The position numbers and the translations under genes were made by a program. Below the pieces are notes generated by a model. That model made no database searches. It was not told the origin of the DNA and worked only from the letters and a program-made list of their open reading frames with translations. Shown here in pieces: positions 1,111 to 10,329 of a stretch of DNA of 64,000 nt; the stretch's first letter is position 1, and each line of letters begins with the position of its first letter. Origin of the DNA: Treponema sp. (GTDB lineage: Bacteria; Spirochaetota; Spirochaetia; Treponematales; Breznakiellaceae); contig WQXG01000001.1 of assembly GCA_009784975.1 (NCBI GenBank), positions 1 through 64,000 on the forward strand, written 5' to 3'.

Positions 1111-1224
1111 ATGACTTACAGCAAACCTCAGGTACTTGCACAAAACAGCAAGCAAGGATCATTTGCAGCGGGTTGTCCAGCTGAAAACAGATGGTGGTGT
1201 CAAAACTGCGAAATGAAACCGTAA
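1111..1224 (+). CDS. candidate RiPP precursor peptide, 37 aa: MTYSKPQVLAQNSKQGSFAAGCPAENRWWCQNCEMKP
   Basis: SD aaaggag 7 nt upstream; leader-like N-terminus, Cys/Trp-rich C-terminus with 3 Cys; located 64 nt upstream of radical SAM/SPASM protein with PqqD-like N-terminus. Below ORF-track length cut-off. Confidence 0.75.
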   Translation: MTYSKPQVLAQNSKQGSFAAGCPAENRWWCQNCEMKP

Positions 1225-1288
1225 TTTATTCTGAGAAAAAGAGTTTTTTCTGTTCTCTTGAAAAACAGAATTTAAAATAAGGAGTAAA

Positions 1289-2728
1289 ATGCTCTATCGG
1301 CAAAAATTCGATACCTTTATTCGCCGCTACGATGACGTGGGATATATTATGAATAAAAGCGACTTAAGTGACCGTGTCGTCGATCTAGCAGGAGCTGTTT
1401 TTCTCGAAGTGCTTTCTCGGAAAGGTCAGAGTATAGAAGTGCTTGCTGTGAAAATTGCACGAACATTTATTGACGTTGATATAAATACATTAGAAAAAGA
1501 TGCTGCAGAATTTTATGCCATGTTAGAAGAGGATGGCTTCATAGTCTCTGGCGAAACGGAAGAGGAACTTGACAGAAAAGATACACGCTTTTCGTATTCT
1601 ACGTTGAATCCTAAAACTGTCAGAACCGATTTTACCCCTGGAATTAAACGTGTGAACAAAACTACCCAAGAATTTCTTAATGAAAATTTCAAGGATAATC
1701 CGCATTTAGCTTCATTCCAAATAGAGCTTACAAGTCGTTGTAACGAGCGTTGTATTCATTGTTATATTCCACACAAATATAAACTCGAAGATATTGCTCC
1801 AGATTTTTTTTATGACGTGCTTGACCAATGTAGAAATATGGGATTACTCAGTTTAACTCTATCTGGTGGTGAACCGATGTTACATCCAATGTTTTGCGAT
1901 TTTTTGAGTAAAGCAAAGGAATATGATTTTTCTATCAACATTCTTTCTAACTTCACCCTTCTTAACGACGAAATAATTGCAGAAATGAAGGCAAACCGCC
2001 TTTCTAGTGTTCAGGTATCGCTGTACAGTATGAAACCAGAAATACACGATGGTATTACGAAACTTCCTGGCTCTTTTGAAAAAACGAAAAACTCAATTCT
2101 GAAGTTGATTGAAAACAATATACCATTGCAAATAAGCTGTCCCACCATGAAACAAAACAAAAATTGCTATATTGATGTAATGAAGTGGGCACGAGAGAAC
2201 AAATGTCGCACGGTATCTGACTTCATAATGATGGCACGCTACGACGGTTGTGTCGAAAATTTGGAAAACCGACTTTCTATTGATGAGACGGAAAAACTTA
2301 TAAATGATGTTCTTGACAACGATCAAGAATATAGGATGGAATTGCTAGGTGCAAATATCGATGCTATCAATGTTCGGGATATTTCCGAAGACAAAATTTG
2401 TGGTGTGTGTATTGATACTCTGTGCATGGTGGCAAATGGTAATGTCTATCCTTGCTCTGGTTGGCAGAGCTATGTTTGTGGCAATTTAAAAGAAACCCCA
2501 CTACGTGAGATTTGGGAAAACTCATCCAAGGTCATGTATTTGCGTAGCTTGCGTAAAAAAGATTTCCCAATATGCCTTGAATGTATAGATAGAAATTTCT
2601 GTGCGATGTGCATGGTTCGCAATGGTAATGAGGATCCTGATGGTAATTTTCTAAAAATTAACGAGCACTTCTGTAAGGTAGCAGCACTAAATCGTAAAAT
2701 CGTTTTAGAATGGAAAAAAGCACACTAG
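1289..2728 (+). CDS. radical SAM/SPASM peptide maturase with N-terminal PqqD-like (RRE) domain
   Basis: CNERCIHC (CX3CX2C) motif; C-terminal SPASM cysteines (CGVCIDTLC...YPCSGW...CLECIDRNFCAMC); ~95-aa N-terminal PqqD-like region. Confidence 0.85.
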   Translation: MLYRQKFDTFIRRYDDVGYIMNKSDLSDRVVDLAGAVFLEVLSRKGQSIEVLAVKIARTFIDVDINTLEKDAAEFYAMLEEDGFIVSGETEEELDRKDTRFSYSTLNPKTVRTDFTPGIKRVNKTTQEFLNENFKDNPHLASFQIELTSRCNERCIHCYIPHKYKLEDIAPDFFYDVLDQCRNMGLLSLTLSGGEPMLHPMFCDFLSKAKEYDFSINILSNFTLLNDEIIAEMKANRLSSVQVSLYSMKPEIHDGITKLPGSFEKTKNSILKLIENNIPLQISCPTMKQNKNCYIDVMKWARENKCRTVSDFIMMARYDGCVENLENRLSIDETEKLINDVLDNDQEYRMELLGANIDAINVRDISEDKICGVCIDTLCMVANGNVYPCSGWQSYVCGNLKETPLREIWENSSKVMYLRSLRKKDFPICLECIDRNFCAMCMVRNGNEDPDGNFLKINEHFCKVAALNRKIVLEWKKAH

Positions 2729-2746
2729 TCAATTTGGAGATTAATT

Positions 2747-3190
2747 TTGCATTGTTCAGTATATGACATAGGTAAATTGACGGATTATAAATTCGTTGTT
2801 ATATTTGCTCGTTTTAATTATAAATGGGTATTATGCAAACATAAAGATAGAATTACCTGGGAGTTACCCGGAGGGGGTATCAAACTTGGTGAGACAACAA
2901 TAGATGCAGCAAAAAGAGAGTTATATGAGGAAACAGGAGCAATAAATTTCAGCATCATTCCTATTTGTGATTATAGTTTTTCATTATCAAACGCTCAGGT
3001 ATTTTTTGCAAGTATTGATAATATTGGTAATATCCCAGAAAGTGAAATTGATTATGTGCAATTTTTTGATACATTTCCTGAGGATATAACATATCCTGAG
3101 GATAAAAACGAATTAATACCATATGTTCTAAATAAAATAAAAGAGAGGAATATATATGATTGTAAAACATACTATAGACGATTTCAATAA
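2747..3190 (+). CDS. Nudix hydrolase (TTG start)
   Basis: Nudix box GGIKLGETTIDAAKRELYEETGA. Confidence 0.8.
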   Translation: MHCSVYDIGKLTDYKFVVIFARFNYKWVLCKHKDRITWELPGGGIKLGETTIDAAKRELYEETGAINFSIIPICDYSFSLSNAQVFFASIDNIGNIPESEIDYVQFFDTFPEDITYPEDKNELIPYVLNKIKERNIYDCKTYYRRFQ

Positions 3191-4013
3191 CCTTTGGCAA
3201 TTATCAGAGGCTGGTAAATCCGCAAATTCAAAAGTGTTTTGGGCAGATATAGCCGACAATTGGATTTCTGAATTCGTTTCAGAGGAAAAAGGTAAGCCTT
3301 GGGTTCATCATAGAGTATGTGCAACATCAAATTATTTAAAACAAAACGATTTGATAAACTCGAAATGTTCTGTTGTTGATATTGGATGCGGTCCAGGTCT
3401 TTTTGTAATAGAATTTGCTAAAACTGCAAAATACGCAATGGGTATAGATTATTCAAATCGTTTTATTCAATATGGTCGCGATGTTGCAAAAATTCAAGGA
3501 ATACATAATGTAGAATTTTGTGAATATGATTTTGAAAATATAGATATTGATAGCATGGGACTTACAGGAGCCTTTGATTTAGCATTTTCTTGTATAAGTG
3601 GTGCGATTTGTTCTTTGGAATCAATTAATAAACTAATGAAGATGAGTCATTCATGGTGCTATTGTTCAAATTTTGTAAGTGTGAATGATAGTCTTATAAA
3701 AGCAATTTGTTATGATATTTTTGGAGAACATTATAAATCTCATCATAATGGAACTGGCTTCTACTCTCTTTTTAATATTCTTTGGTTAATGGGTTATCGT
3801 CCTGAAACAAACTACTTTGTAGAGTCTCATACAGAAGTAATTGTACCTACATGGGAAAAAGCACAAGAATTTGCAAATAGGTGTCATCATAAAACACCAG
3901 AAGAAACAGAAAAAATATTTAATTGGCTTAATTCACATAGAGAGATAGAGCGGAAGGTAGAATATGCCTACGGTGGAATTCTTTGGGATATTCGTATAAA
4001 GGATGGGCGCTAA
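3156..4013 (+). CDS. class I SAM-dependent methyltransferase
   Basis: VVDIGCGPGLFVIEFA motif I. Confidence 0.8.
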   Translation: MIVKHTIDDFNNLWQLSEAGKSANSKVFWADIADNWISEFVSEEKGKPWVHHRVCATSNYLKQNDLINSKCSVVDIGCGPGLFVIEFAKTAKYAMGIDYSNRFIQYGRDVAKIQGIHNVEFCEYDFENIDIDSMGLTGAFDLAFSCISGAICSLESINKLMKMSHSWCYCSNFVSVNDSLIKAICYDIFGEHYKSHHNGTGFYSLFNILWLMGYRPETNYFVESHTEVIVPTWEKAQEFANRCHHKTPEETEKIFNWLNSHREIERKVEYAYGGILWDIRIKDGR

Positions 4014-4061
4014 GTAAATAAAGATACTGTGAAAGATAAATATTAACTAAGGAGTAATAAT

Positions 4062-5033
4062 ATGCAAAAAAACAATGTTTTAAATAATATTACAGTGGCA
4101 AAGATCGTTACTGGTACTTACGGACAAAAGGGTTGTACTTGTAATTGCCCTGGATGTTTTTTAGGAACTTATGATGCATTAGGTAAACCAAAATATCAAG
4201 GGACAATAGAGCAAGTTATTGAAATGGTATCCCTATTACCAAACTTGAAGTCTGTCATATTATATGGAAATCCGGATATATCTGTTGATCCGCAGTTTTG
4301 TAATGAAGCAGCAAAATATCTTCAATCCCTTAAAAAAAGTATAGTTATGTTTACTTCTGGTATTGGCGGTGCAAAAATAATTAAAGAAATTATGAATGGT
4401 ATTAATCCTGAATCTGTTTCAATAAATATTTCTGTTGATTCAATTGATGAGAAAAAACTTCGTATGTTACGGGGATGTAATATATCATTACAAAACATTG
4501 TTGATAGTATGATGTGTTGTAATGAAATAAAAGTTCCTTTTAGTATATCAACAAATATTTGGCCATTGACAGCAAATGATGACTTTTTTAATTTTAAAAA
4601 ATATTTTTTATCGTACGGTGCTCAAAAAATCCGTTTTCATTTTGGATCACCTGATGGTGCAATAACAGAAATGCCCCATATTAATGAAGATTCATTTTTA
4701 GAAATAAGAAATAAATTAAGAGAAGTGGGCGGCAGGGTACCTGCTATTCTTGTTACTAAAGAAGAATATGTCAAATGGAAGCTGGATACCTATCGCCCAC
4801 AGTGTATTAAAGCACATAAACTGCATGTTTTTCTTGAGCAAGATGGAATAAAAGCAGCAGCATGCTGCGGAATATTAGCACAACAAAATCCAGAAAAACA
4901 TATTGTTGACATCAGAAAAGTTGAACATCTTGAATCAAGCAATGTAAAACGGTGTCCTTGTGCAGAAAAAAGTTTGGGATATAAATGTAATTTTTTAATT
5001 CCTGTTTGCAGAAGTTTTAGCTGTCCGGAATAA
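4062..5033 (+). CDS. radical SAM protein (second maturase-type)
   Basis: CTCNCPGC gives CX3CX2C; radical SAM TIM-barrel-like strands; Cys-rich C-terminus. Confidence 0.75.
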   Translation: MQKNNVLNNITVAKIVTGTYGQKGCTCNCPGCFLGTYDALGKPKYQGTIEQVIEMVSLLPNLKSVILYGNPDISVDPQFCNEAAKYLQSLKKSIVMFTSGIGGAKIIKEIMNGINPESVSINISVDSIDEKKLRMLRGCNISLQNIVDSMMCCNEIKVPFSISTNIWPLTANDDFFNFKKYFLSYGAQKIRFHFGSPDGAITEMPHINEDSFLEIRNKLREVGGRVPAILVTKEEYVKWKLDTYRPQCIKAHKLHVFLEQDGIKAAACCGILAQQNPEKHIVDIRKVEHLESSNVKRCPCAEKSLGYKCNFLIPVCRSFSCPE

Positions 5034-5084
5034 GTTTTATAAGAAATAAAGAATCTAATTTAATATAAAATGAGGTAATGAAAA

Positions 5085-6434
5085 TTGTTTGATGTTGTAA
5101 TTATTGGTGCTGGTCCAGCAGGATTATCTGCGGCATATTCATTAGTAAAAAATAATTCTAAACTAAAGGTTGCATTATTTGAGGCTGGTAGTAGCAGAGA
5201 TAAAAGTATATGTAGTTTACCAACAGAATCACAATGTAAAAAATGTGAAAATTGCGAAACAATTACAGGTTTTGGTGGATGCTTTTTGCCCTTTCATGCA
5301 TCAAAACTCAGCTTTCCTCCATCGGGTAAGCGATTGGCAAAAATTATGGGAGATGATGAATACAAAAGAATTTGTAAAATTATTTGGTCTTTATATTGTG
5401 ATTTAATTAAAAAACCTGATTTGGTTTATCCAAAACTAATAGAGAACATCAATTTACTGGAACGTTCAATAATATCACGTAATTGTGAAATGGTTTTATA
5501 CAAATATCCAATTCATCTCTCAAATGAAAAAGAACATTCACTATTCATTAATGAAATATATAAAACATTGGTAGAAAATGATGTAGAAATATTTACTAAC
5601 CAGTTTATTGATATTGAACATAATATTGATATTAAAAATAAAACATTGACAATACGTGGAAATGACACTATTAAGTTCAAGAGTATCTTTTTGGCAACTG
5701 GAAGACGTGGTTTTAATCAAACGCAAAACTTTTTTAATGCAAATGGAATTTTAAGAAAAAAAGAAAATGCTAATTTTGGTATTAGATATATGATACCATC
5801 AAAATATCTCAATATAATATCCTCCTTACATCCAGATTTTAAAGTAAAACTTCAAACGCCAGAAGCAGAACTTGAGACGTTTTGTTTCAGTAATAGTCAT
5901 AACGGAGGACGTGTTGACTTTTTACAATATGATGAATTTTTAAATATAGATGGGCATATCTCTGTTAATGCTGAAGGTGATATGATAAAAAATATGGCTT
6001 ATGGAAATTTTGCAGTACTCTATAAAAACCTCAAAAAAATTATAACCTACAAAGAAATTGTTTCTCGTATAGATCAAATGACTATTCATAATTTTAAACG
6101 AATTCCCATTGGGAATTCTTTATTTGTATCAAACAATTCTGAGTTATCGCAATTTTTTCACGAATTTGAGTTTAAAAGCATAATTAAATTTTCTATGGAT
6201 ATTTTTAACATTATCGCAGACCTTAATAAGATTGATTTAGATAATCTTCTAAAAGAAATATATGTATATGGTCCTGAAATAGAAAATATCTGGGGTGAAA
6301 TTAAAATAATAAATAGCTCTTTTGAAATTGCTGATAATGTTTTTGCAATTGGCGATTGTACAGGTCTTGCTCAAGGGGTTATTTCATCCATGGCAATGGG
6401 ATATAAAGCAGGTGAAATGTATGGGTGTAAATAA
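5085..6434 (+). CDS. FAD-dependent NAD(P)-type oxidoreductase (TTG start)
   Basis: GAGPAGLSAA dinucleotide fold; C-terminal AIGDCTGLAQGVISSMAMG; extra Cys cluster CSLPTESQCKKCENC. Confidence 0.8.
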   Translation: MFDVVIIGAGPAGLSAAYSLVKNNSKLKVALFEAGSSRDKSICSLPTESQCKKCENCETITGFGGCFLPFHASKLSFPPSGKRLAKIMGDDEYKRICKIIWSLYCDLIKKPDLVYPKLIENINLLERSIISRNCEMVLYKYPIHLSNEKEHSLFINEIYKTLVENDVEIFTNQFIDIEHNIDIKNKTLTIRGNDTIKFKSIFLATGRRGFNQTQNFFNANGILRKKENANFGIRYMIPSKYLNIISSLHPDFKVKLQTPEAELETFCFSNSHNGGRVDFLQYDEFLNIDGHISVNAEGDMIKNMAYGNFAVLYKNLKKIITYKEIVSRIDQMTIHNFKRIPIGNSLFVSNNSELSQFFHEFEFKSIIKFSMDIFNIIADLNKIDLDNLLKEIYVYGPEIENIWGEIKIINSSFEIADNVFAIGDCTGLAQGVISSMAMGYKAGEMYGCK

Positions 6435-6460
6435 TAAACCCCAGTCTATACTGTGGCTGA

Positions 6461-7144
6461 ATGAAGGATAAAAGTATGAATGAAGATATTAGGAAATATT
6501 TTGATAGAGCAGAAAAGTACGAAAAATCTCGCCCAGAATATCCAAAAATTATTTTGGATTATTTATTAAGTTTTGATTTTTCAAAAAATACAATAATCGC
6601 CGATATTGGTTCTGGTACAGGAAAATTATCAAAAATATTTCTGGAAAATGGTAATAAAGTATATACTGTAGAACCAAATGAAAATATGAGAAAAATGACT
6701 GATTCATTATTTGGTAAATATAGTAATTATCATTCAATGAATGGAACCGCAGAAAATACAGGATTACCAGATAAAAGCATTGATATCATTACTGTTGCAC
6801 AAGCATTTCACTGGTTTGATACAATAAAAGCATTAATGGAATTTAGAAAAATATTAAAAGATAATGGATTATTGATTTTATTATGGAATAAAAGTAATGC
6901 GAAAACGATATTCCAAAAAGAAATTAATAATATATTTAGTAATATTATTAATAAAAATGAAACGATTCATAACAAATTATCAGAAAATGACATAATAAAT
7001 ACATTTAAAATATTTTATAAAAAAGTTGTTATTGAAAATTATGCGGATAATGATTTCAATGATGTGATAGATGGAATATTTTCTTATCCTTATGCTCCGG
7101 AAAAAGGTACATCAGAATATAAAGAAATATATAATAAGATATAA
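6461..7144 (+). CDS. class I SAM-dependent methyltransferase
   Basis: IADIGSGTGKLSKIFLENG; AQAFHWFD motif. Confidence 0.8.
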   Translation: MKDKSMNEDIRKYFDRAEKYEKSRPEYPKIILDYLLSFDFSKNTIIADIGSGTGKLSKIFLENGNKVYTVEPNENMRKMTDSLFGKYSNYHSMNGTAENTGLPDKSIDIITVAQAFHWFDTIKALMEFRKILKDNGLLILLWNKSNAKTIFQKEINNIFSNIINKNETIHNKLSENDIINTFKIFYKKVVIENYADNDFNDVIDGIFSYPYAPEKGTSEYKEIYNKI

Positions 7145-7222
7145 ATAATATTTAATAAATATAATAATAATGGAATAGTTAAATATAATTATGATACAGA
7201 AATATATATTGGGAGTATATAA

Positions 7223-8143
7223 ATGATATACAAATTATTAAAAAATTGGGATATAGCCGAAATTCTTTCATATACAGAATTGAAGAAAAATATTTATAAA
7301 ATAGAAACAACAGGAAATTATTACATCTTGAAATCTAAAAATTATTCTAATAAAAATATATATGAAAACTATCATTTTAATGATAAAAATATTGAATTTC
7401 AAATTGAAAGTCCTATTTTAACTAAAGAAGGAAAATATTATATAGAAAATAAAGAGAAAATACATGTTCTGTTTAATTTTATAGATGGGAAACATATTAA
7501 TGAATATTATAACGATAACTATTTAATACAAGCAGAGTTAATAGGGAAGACAATCGCTTCTTTTCATTCTATTATTAGAGAAAAAGAGAAATATAACTTA
7601 AAAAATATGGATATAACTGAAAATATAATAAATAATGTGTATAATACAATATTAAATAATAAAACAATTATTGATTTTAATTTTATTTCTATGTTAATAG
7701 ATGACTTTAAGCATAACTTTATTTCATTATATAACGATTTACCAAAACAAATTATTCATAAAGATATTCATACAAAAAATATCTTGTTTAAAAACGGTAA
7801 AATATCTGGAATTATTGATTTGGAATTATTAACATATGGGATTAGAATATATGATGTATGTTATTGTTCTGCAAATATTTTATGTGATAAAATTGATGAC
7901 AACATAAATATAAATAAATGGTTCAAAATATTTTATCAGATAATTAAAGCATATAATAGTATTATAAAAATAACAGAAAATGAAAAGAAAGGTATAGTTT
8001 ATGTTCTTTATTCAAACGAATTAAAATATATAGATTTTTATATTAAACAAAAAAATATGAAAGGAATAAAAACAGCAGAAAAAATGTTAAAATGGTTATA
8101 CGGGAATCAACAAAAAATTAAAAATGAAATTGATAAAATATAA
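7223..8143 (+). CDS. aminoglycoside phosphotransferase (APH)-like kinase
   Basis: IIHKDIHTKNILF catalytic loop and GIIDLE. Confidence 0.75.
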   Translation: MIYKLLKNWDIAEILSYTELKKNIYKIETTGNYYILKSKNYSNKNIYENYHFNDKNIEFQIESPILTKEGKYYIENKEKIHVLFNFIDGKHINEYYNDNYLIQAELIGKTIASFHSIIREKEKYNLKNMDITENIINNVYNTILNNKTIIDFNFISMLIDDFKHNFISLYNDLPKQIIHKDIHTKNILFKNGKISGIIDLELLTYGIRIYDVCYCSANILCDKIDDNININKWFKIFYQIIKAYNSIIKITENEKKGIVYVLYSNELKYIDFYIKQKNMKGIKTAEKMLKWLYGNQQKIKNEIDKI

Positions 8144-8158
8144 GAGGGTATTTTAAGT

Positions 8159-8677
8159 ATGGATAGAAAAAGAGTAATAGCAGCAATAATTTATGAAAGT
8201 AAAATTGCAATGATATACAATATTATTGAACCTAATAAAATGTTTTGGACTCTTCCTGGCGGAAGAGTAGAAAATGGAGAAAATCTGGAAGAAGCTGTAA
8301 TTCGTGAAGCATTAGAAGAAGTAAATTTAAATATAAAAATAATAAGATACCTATTCAGTCGAAAATACTCAGATGGAATTGAACATTGTTTTTTAGGAGA
8401 GCCATTAGATCCGGAAAATATTAAGACTGGAAGTGATCCAGAATATAAAGCAGAAAAACAAATAATTAAAAAAGCAGAATGGAAAAATATATTAGATGTT
8501 AAAAATGATATACAGGTATCAATTGTATTAAAACATTTAACTGAAATTGAATGTTTTAAATATAAAATTAATGATGGTTTTAAGAGTGATAAAGATTTAG
8601 TAATTTCAAATATTGAAATGGCAATTGAAATTGATTCCCAAAATAAAGATTATCGTGAAGCCCTTGAAGAATTATAA
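8159..8677 (+). CDS. Nudix hydrolase
   Basis: GGRVENGENLEEAVIREALEEVNL Nudix box. Confidence 0.8.
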   Translation: MDRKRVIAAIIYESKIAMIYNIIEPNKMFWTLPGGRVENGENLEEAVIREALEEVNLNIKIIRYLFSRKYSDGIEHCFLGEPLDPENIKTGSDPEYKAEKQIIKKAEWKNILDVKNDIQVSIVLKHLTEIECFKYKINDGFKSDKDLVISNIEMAIEIDSQNKDYREALEEL

Positions 8678-9062: not shown

Positions 9063-9098
9063 CTTAAAATATGATAAGCTTAAAAAAAGGAGCAAAAA

Positions 9099-9338
9099 AT
9101 GGCAGACATTAGAGACGTAAACGGCAATGTAACCCACAGGAGAAACGGAAATGAGATTAGGGATCTTTCTGACAGAGTAACTCACAGAATAAACGGCAAC
9201 GAAATCAGAGACGTTTCTGACAGGGTTACCCACAGGATTAACGGCGATGAAATCAGGGATATTAATGACAGAGTTGTTTATAGAATAAGCGGCAGCGAGA
9301 TAAGGGACGTTGGCGGTTCTGTAACTCATAGGTTTTGA
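9099..9338 (+). CDS. solenoid-repeat protein, five 16-aa units (NGNEIRDVSDRVTHRI)
   Basis: SD aaaggagc; internal 48-bp tandem repeats in phase with codons. Confidence 0.75.
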   Translation: MADIRDVNGNVTHRRNGNEIRDLSDRVTHRINGNEIRDVSDRVTHRINGDEIRDINDRVVYRISGSEIRDVGGSVTHRF

Positions 9339-9347
9339 TAAAACTTT

Positions 9348-9697: not shown

Positions 9698-9928
9698 ATG
9701 CAAACTGCAAAATTATTTTTAAATGGCAGAAGCCAAGCCGTAAGACTTCCAAAAGAATATCAATTTAATGGAAATAATGTTTATATCAGAAGGATTGGAG
9801 AGGCTGTTATGTTATTTCCGGTTGATAAAGAATGGGAAGTGTTTTTACATGGATTAAATAATTTCTCGGATGATTTTATGGCAGAAGGCAGAAATCAGGG
9901 AATTGATCAAAAAAGAGAAGGATTTTAA
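9698..9928 (+). CDS. vapB: VapB-type (AbrB-fold) antitoxin
   Basis: AKLFLNGRSQAVRLPKEYQF motif; immediately precedes PIN toxin, TAATG overlap. Confidence 0.85.
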   Translation: MQTAKLFLNGRSQAVRLPKEYQFNGNNVYIRRIGEAVMLFPVDKEWEVFLHGLNNFSDDFMAEGRNQGIDQKREGF

Positions 9929-10329
9929 TGTACTTATTTGATACAAACATGTGCATATTCATAATTAAAAGAAAATTCCCAAATGTTATGGATAAATTAA
10001 AGAAAAACAGGAAAAAAGGACTTTATTTATCAAGTATTACTCTTGCTGAACTGGAATTTGGAATAGAAAATGCAAATCCGGATTATAAAGAAAAAAATAC
10101 AATAGCCTTAATGGAATTTTTATCAATTTTTGAAGTAAAAAGTTTTGATGAAAATGCAGCAAAAGAATATGGGATAATCAAAAAGGACCTAAAAGACAGA
10201 AATTGTTTAATTGGTCCTTATGATATGTTAATAGGAGCTCATGCAAAATCACTAAAAATGATATTGGTTACAAATAATACAGACGAATTTCAAAGAATAA
10301 AAGGTCTAAAAATAGAAGATTGGAAATAA
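9928..10329 (+). CDS. vapC: VapC PIN-domain ribonuclease toxin
   Basis: YLFDTNMCIF..., SSITLAELEFG, VTNNTDEF motifs. Confidence 0.85.
   Translation: MYLFDTNMCIFIIKRKFPNVMDKLKKNRKKGLYLSSITLAELEFGIENANPDYKEKNTIALMEFLSIFEVKSFDENAAKEYGIIKKDLKDRNCLIGPYDMLIGAHAKSLKMILVTNNTDEFQRIKGLKIEDWK

Follow-up and report, generated by a model that had tools for sequence, protein, structure and literature searches.

A three-cysteine RiPP-type gene pair and an adjoining AT-rich enzyme block in a Treponema genome

Background

In ranthipeptide and sactipeptide systems such as PapB, SkfB, AlbA and RumMC, a short cysteine-containing precursor is encoded 5' of a radical S-adenosylmethionine (SAM)/SPASM enzyme that is fused to a RiPP recognition element (RRE; RiPP, ribosomally synthesized and post-translationally modified peptide). 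The same arrangement is found in Treponema sp. (assembly GCA_009784975.1, a 2.6-Mb draft in 73 contigs), near the start of contig WQXG01000001.1, whose first 64,000 nucleotides were analysed here and are referred to as the window. In the window, a precursor gene and its maturase gene rSAM1 (together module A, 1111–2728) are followed by seven further enzyme genes, Nudix1, MT1, rSAM2, the gene for an oxidoreductase dependent on flavin adenine dinucleotide (FAD), MT2, an APH-like kinase gene and Nudix2 (module B, 2747–8677; Table 1). Unlike the described systems, the peptide has an AAGC...CxxCE pattern with three conserved cysteines, and the usual partner of its maturase is an Amidohydro_2 family hydrolase.

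The Spirochaetes RiPP clusters listed in the table of PMC4289311 are only of the linear azol(in)e-containing peptide (LAP) type. Table 2 of PMC10904984 includes clusters from Treponema metagenome bins, hence from the same order (Treponematales), that are called RiPP-like; unlike the locus described here, they carry in that table an automatic label only, with no description of precursor, enzyme or family. No description of the precursor family was found in the open-access literature, subscription papers and preprints being outside the scope of that search, and the three-cysteine RiPP operon, widespread in Treponematales, is apparently undescribed. We consider it probable that the window contains two adjacent modules, namely, this Treponematales RiPP operon and an acquired block of small-molecule genes.

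Results and discussion

A conserved precursor and maturase

Both the Radical_SAM (PF04055) and the SPASM (PF13186) domain of rSAM1 score over their cut-offs. A PqqD-like RRE is matched by the N-termini of all ten rSAM1 orthologues compared (best E 1.8e-6), whereas that of the window's rSAM1 taken alone is sub-threshold (19.5 vs 23.4 bits). Orthologues with 57–72% identity are encoded in 13 of 200 genomes of the same family, and rSAM1 is present in 31 of the 384 genomes of the order, several of which are assembled in one to three contigs. Among 32 loci with rSAM1 relatives, a regular-expression search located the precursor 5' of rSAM1 in 23, and tblastn added three (L121, L122 and L124).

The precursors share a leader-like N-terminus, MxYxKPxVxAQNxxxGxxAAGCP, followed by a short variable part and then by C-x2-C-E. 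Ten positions (M1, Y3, K5, P6, A10, G16, A20, G21, C22 and C33) are invariant in the 23 aligned sequences, including that of the window, and C30 is nearly so (90% or more). The window's precursor keeps the conserved positions but has the C-terminal end EMKP as opposed to ERTx in most relatives. Because 22 further precursors with the ten invariant positions lie 5' of rSAM1 orthologues, the precursor is taken to be genuine and not a chance reading frame; judged by sequence conservation, it forms with rSAM1 a conserved RiPP-type pair. A preliminary description of this DNA, made from the sequence alone, had proposed a RiPP-type precursor with its own radical SAM/SPASM maturase, followed by biosynthetic-looking genes, and this part of it is supported.

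The locus has the two features expected of a RiPP system, a short precursor open reading frame (ORF) conserved beside a maturase and an RRE in that maturase (in all ten orthologues), as well as the radical SAM and SPASM domains and cysteine-containing core (Cys22, Cys30 and Cys33 conserved) of ranthipeptide and sactipeptide systems. It does not belong to a named maturase or precursor family: rSAM1 partially matches several maturase models, among them those of PapB, SkfB and AlbA, and is far below the NCBIfam equivalog cut-offs in all radical SAM/SPASM models (25 best), and the precursor matched no NCBIfam or Pfam model. The RRE of rSAM1 would bind the conserved leader, and its radical SAM/SPASM part is predicted to install one or more cross-links, of the thioether type seen in ranthipeptides and sactipeptides, in the short C-terminal part of the peptide. 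The predicted cross-link region carries the three conserved cysteines. In the relatives, the Amidohydro_2 hydrolase probably completes or trims the product. Precursor, RRE-radical SAM-SPASM enzyme and amidohydrolase make up a compact RiPP family across Treponematales, including near-complete one- or two-contig genomes, that none of the curated family models tried matches. In some relatives (L028, L032, L108 and L119), a second maturase-like radical SAM gene lies beside rSAM1 or the precursor.

The missing amidohydrolase

Downstream comparison was limited to 26 informative loci, that is, those in which rSAM1 is full-length and the downstream DNA extends for 0.7 kb or more. An Amidohydro_2 family gene (Pfam, 36.4 bits) lies 6–1741 bp 3' of rSAM1 in 23 of these; it is not present in the other three, nor in one further locus that is cut at its 5' side by a contig edge. 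When 13 genomes were searched with the amidohydrolase, seven matches were obtained, every one beside rSAM1; the window's own genome gave no match in this search, and no remnant of the gene is visible in the window. Nudix1 begins 18 nt 3' of rSAM1, where the amidohydrolase would start. Most likely, the three-cysteine RiPP operon lost its amidohydrolase in this genome. In two relatives (L033:14385–15188 and L116:5193–6087), genes reading like ion channels adjoin the amidohydrolase and could encode a target or an immunity function.

An AT-rich block absent from the relatives

With matches counted at E below 1e-4, the 32 relative loci contain no counterpart of any of the seven module-B genes; the flanks of these loci vary, some comprising only a few hundred bases, where absence is a weaker argument, and many extending over more than 4 kb downstream. 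The module also differs from its surroundings in GC content at third codon positions (GC3), which averages 0.373 (standard deviation 0.064) over 41 ORFs (150 aa or longer) elsewhere in the window, a value close to that of rSAM1 but not to those of the genes after it (Table 1). The compositional break lies right after rSAM1 and not at 4062, so Nudix1 and MT1 belong with the foreign-looking block; the module boundary that the preliminary description implied at 4062 is therefore moved to 2728/2747. Codon-usage likelihood against host genes failed to separate the block and was uninformative because AT-rich genes score high under it; GC3 and GC were used in its place.

Outside the relative loci, a search for MT1 at E ≤ 1e-15 gave no relative among 199 other genomes of the same family, and no close relative of rSAM2 was found in those 199 genomes, a phylum sample, 84,980 species genomes, plasmids or IMG/VR. 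For Nudix2, a 60% identical relative is located at a contig end in one same-family genome without an rSAM1 match. The APH kinase gave no match in 13 genomes searched, a result that by itself carries no weight. Viral origin of the block was considered and set aside after single-protein scans of IMG/VR with rSAM2, the FAD protein and Nudix2 gave no relative. A single-sequence AlphaFold model of rSAM2 had a mean predicted local distance difference test score (pLDDT) of 41 and was not used.

Six of the seven module-B genes are open and, by inspection, keep their catalytic motifs. The exception is MT2, a genuine methyltransferase by its domain, whose frame and homology extend to 7222, past the in-frame stop at 7142–7144; the 25 codons after this stop can be aligned with the C-terminal end of a homologue from Priestia. 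Given the in-frame TAA and the homology continuing past it, MT2 appears to be a broken gene or an assembly error.

These observations bear on the proposal, made in the preliminary description, that all eight genes serve one peptide pathway. In such a pathway, rSAM1 would cross-link the peptide, and Nudix1, MT1, rSAM2, the FAD protein, the APH kinase and Nudix2 would tailor it, replacing the amidohydrolase step. The unbroken run of genes on one strand, spaced −35 to 78 nt apart, the position of the block at the very site of the absent, otherwise conserved third operon gene, and the intact, family-conserved precursor and maturase all agree with this explanation; it is nevertheless unlikely, in view of the absence of the seven genes from all 32 relative loci within the sampled flanks, the change in composition after rSAM1, the broken MT2, and the occurrence of FAD-protein relatives in clusters of other kinds. 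Heterologous expression of this cluster would be misled if it were planned around a single eight-gene pathway.

The FAD-dependent oxidoreductase and the likely substrate class

The FAD protein belongs to a subfamily with the signature CxxC...GFGGC...FPSGxRL, whose best match among PDB profiles is VP0956 (3nlc, E 4.5e-24). It differs from the common VP0956-type FAD-dependent dehydrogenases, which have GFSGAGAFSDGKL where the window's protein has GFGGC/FPSGxRL. Relatives are encoded in Actinomycetes, Lachnospiraceae (where one of two copies is fragmentary), a few other bacteria and one archaeal bin. In about 20 such loci, the gene lies beside genes for radical SAM, Nudix, methyltransferase, GTP cyclohydrolase II or DUF7768 proteins or a SIR2-Nudix-radical SAM fusion. 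Across unrelated phyla, the subfamily is repeatedly found with radical SAM, Nudix and nucleotide enzymes as its neighbours.

Plasmids of Nocardia and Kitasatospora (L052:5397–12147 and L053:9018–16028) encode a GluTR-like protein, the FAD protein, a nucleotidyltransferase and two radical SAM proteins, with gltX nearby, a candidate glutamyl-tRNA-dependent biosynthetic cluster. They resemble the window in having an FAD protein of the same subfamily beside radical SAM genes, but their radical SAM proteins are different ones, glutamyl-tRNA enzymes are present, and the core has no Nudix-methyltransferase pair. In Streptomyces and Micromonospora loci, the FAD gene precedes genes for an unknown protein, a methyltransferase, GTP cyclohydrolase II and a UDP-glucose-dehydrogenase-like protein, not all of them present in each locus, and several of these loci have Nudix genes nearby. 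Lachnospiraceae 28-4 (L075:9453–14110) shows an unusual combination of DUF7768, the FAD protein and a 924-aa protein in which SIR2-like, weak Nudix and radical SAM domains are fused. At two other loci (L080:1251–6390 and L064), the FAD relative lies beside an HD-domain protein, a DNA-methyltransferase-like protein and a guanylate kinase-dCTP deaminase fusion. A tblastn search of the FAD-relative loci with the precursor and rSAM1 returned generic radical SAM matches only.

The combined radical SAM, flavin, Nudix and nucleotide-enzyme theme makes a nucleotide-like small molecule the preferred substrate class for module B. Based on the genes that accompany the FAD protein elsewhere, a small molecule, perhaps of nucleotide or nucleoside type, would be a likelier substrate of module B than the peptide, with a predicted chemistry of radical C-H reactions, flavin oxidation, methylation, phosphorylation and Nudix hydrolysis.

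The same recurrence bears on the view that the AT-rich genes are decaying cargo, that is, separate acquisitions in line by chance that form no pathway. Nudix, APH and class I methyltransferase genes commonly occur on their own, MT2 is interrupted, composition differs between Nudix1–FAD and MT2–Nudix2, and beta-flower-like repeats on both sides together with a nearby PIN toxin-antitoxin pair suggest an acquisition hot spot. Against these points stand the tight spacing with the Nudix1/MT1 overlap, the preserved frames and motifs of six of the genes, and the company of radical SAM and Nudix genes that the FAD gene keeps in unrelated phyla, which together render decaying cargo decidedly unlikely. 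An anti-phage defence island, suggested by PADLOC matches (pVip for rSAM1, PDC-S07 for the Nudix proteins) and by the SIR2 fusion beside one FAD relative, is extremely improbable because the PADLOC matches are partial and at superfamily level and a complete system is absent.

Two probable modules side by side

In the favoured arrangement, module B would be an acquired AT-rich block (with MT2 broken) that occupies the place of the amidohydrolase and is probably on the same transcript as module A. Several points weigh against separating the modules. Module B starts only 18 nt after rSAM1, in the same orientation, and takes up the very position of the third gene conserved in relatives, so functional replacement would also fit. 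Single RiPP clusters often contain two radical SAM enzymes, and some relatives have a second maturase-like one; rSAM2 itself is without relatives that would show its usual company. The relatives of the FAD protein are only 20–27% identical to it, and their context may not carry over. In addition, module B itself may be a mosaic, with GC3 of 0.18–0.20 in Nudix1–FAD vs 0.11–0.15 in MT2–Nudix2. Peptide tailoring by module B is conceivable, though unlikely. One form of it, a hybrid in which the block functionally replaced the amidohydrolase and the rSAM1-cross-linked Cys/Trp peptide is coupled to or modified by a methylated, phosphorylated nucleotide-like unit made by rSAM2, the FAD protein, MT1, the APH kinase and the Nudix enzymes, appears quite improbable.

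As a finding that would argue against a single pathway, the preliminary description had named homologues of 4062–8677 occurring consistently without the precursor and maturase. For the FAD protein and Nudix2, this is close to what was observed, and the precursor and maturase likewise occur without the block; the observation falls short of the full statement because rSAM2 has no relatives and the position of the block could reflect functional replacement. Separating the modules replaces one apparent single-strain oddity with two testable objects, a RiPP family and an FAD-protein subfamily.

Gene order and features

The preliminary description of eight closely spaced plus-strand genes after the precursor holds, with intergenic gaps from rSAM1 to Nudix2 of 18, −35, 48, 51, 26, 78 and 15 nt, as does its list of two radical SAM proteins, two Nudix hydrolases, two methyltransferases, an FAD oxidoreductase and an APH-like kinase, since the domains of all eight enzyme genes exceed their Pfam cut-offs. 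The Nudix-methyltransferase combination that it saw twice is present as two pairs of domains, although MT2 and Nudix2 are not adjacent, the APH gene lying between them. No SPASM match was found in rSAM2 by the domain scan. The gene spacing is compatible with one transcription unit; terminator-like matches inside the block are weak consensus matches, and a hairpin sought between precursor and rSAM1 was no better than in shuffled sequences (z −0.27).

Table 1. Genes of modules A and B in the window
Feature	Coordinates	Strand	GC3	Evidence and remarks
RiPP precursor peptide	1111..1224	+		37 aa, MTYSKPQVLAQNSKQGSFAAGCPAENRWWCQNCEMKP; 22 orthologous precursors 5' of rSAM1 orthologues
rSAM1, RRE(PqqD-like)-radical SAM-SPASM maturase (predicted)	1289..2728	+	0.342	479 aa; Pfam, orthologues; cluster cysteines intact
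Nudix1 hydrolase	2747..3190	+	0.196	PF00293, 41.8 bits; TTG start; Nudix box intact by inspection
MT1, class I SAM-dependent methyltransferase	3156..4013	+	0.196	PF13847, 50.4 bits; 35-nt overlap with Nudix1
rSAM2, radical SAM protein	4062..5033	+	0.185	PF04055, 33.8 bits (cut-off 29.5); CX3CX2C, Cys-rich C-terminus
FAD-dependent oxidoreductase (FAD/NAD(P)-binding Rossmann)	5085..6434	+	0.180	TTG start; distant relative of VP0956 (PDB 3nlc)
MT2, class I methyltransferase (BioC-like)	6461..7144	+	0.145	PF08241, 59.7 bits; in-frame TAA at 7142–7144, frame runs on to 7222
APH/ThrB-like kinase	7223..8143	+	0.147	PF01636, 49.1 bits; 18.7% GC
Nudix2 hydrolase	8159..8677	+	0.110	PF00293, 49.1 bits

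Neighbourhood of the locus

Repeats of a 16-residue-repeat protein flank the island (124–243 and 604–657 before it, 9087–9341 after it) and have no further copies in the genome; the protein has a weak match to a 5-fold beta-flower (E 0.011), and the repeats are a possible recombination hot spot. Just 5' of the precursor, two diverged copies of an unknown 90-aa gene (273–545 and 696–968) form a 300-nt direct repeat with 78% identity. A toxin-antitoxin-like pair, comprising a weak MazE-like antitoxin and a PIN-domain toxin, is located 3' of the block (9698–10329). The contig begins, on the minus strand (3–212), within an ORF containing MAKKMKERRQYTQEFKTEA that resembles the beginning of an IS3-type transposase, and may have been broken at an insertion sequence.

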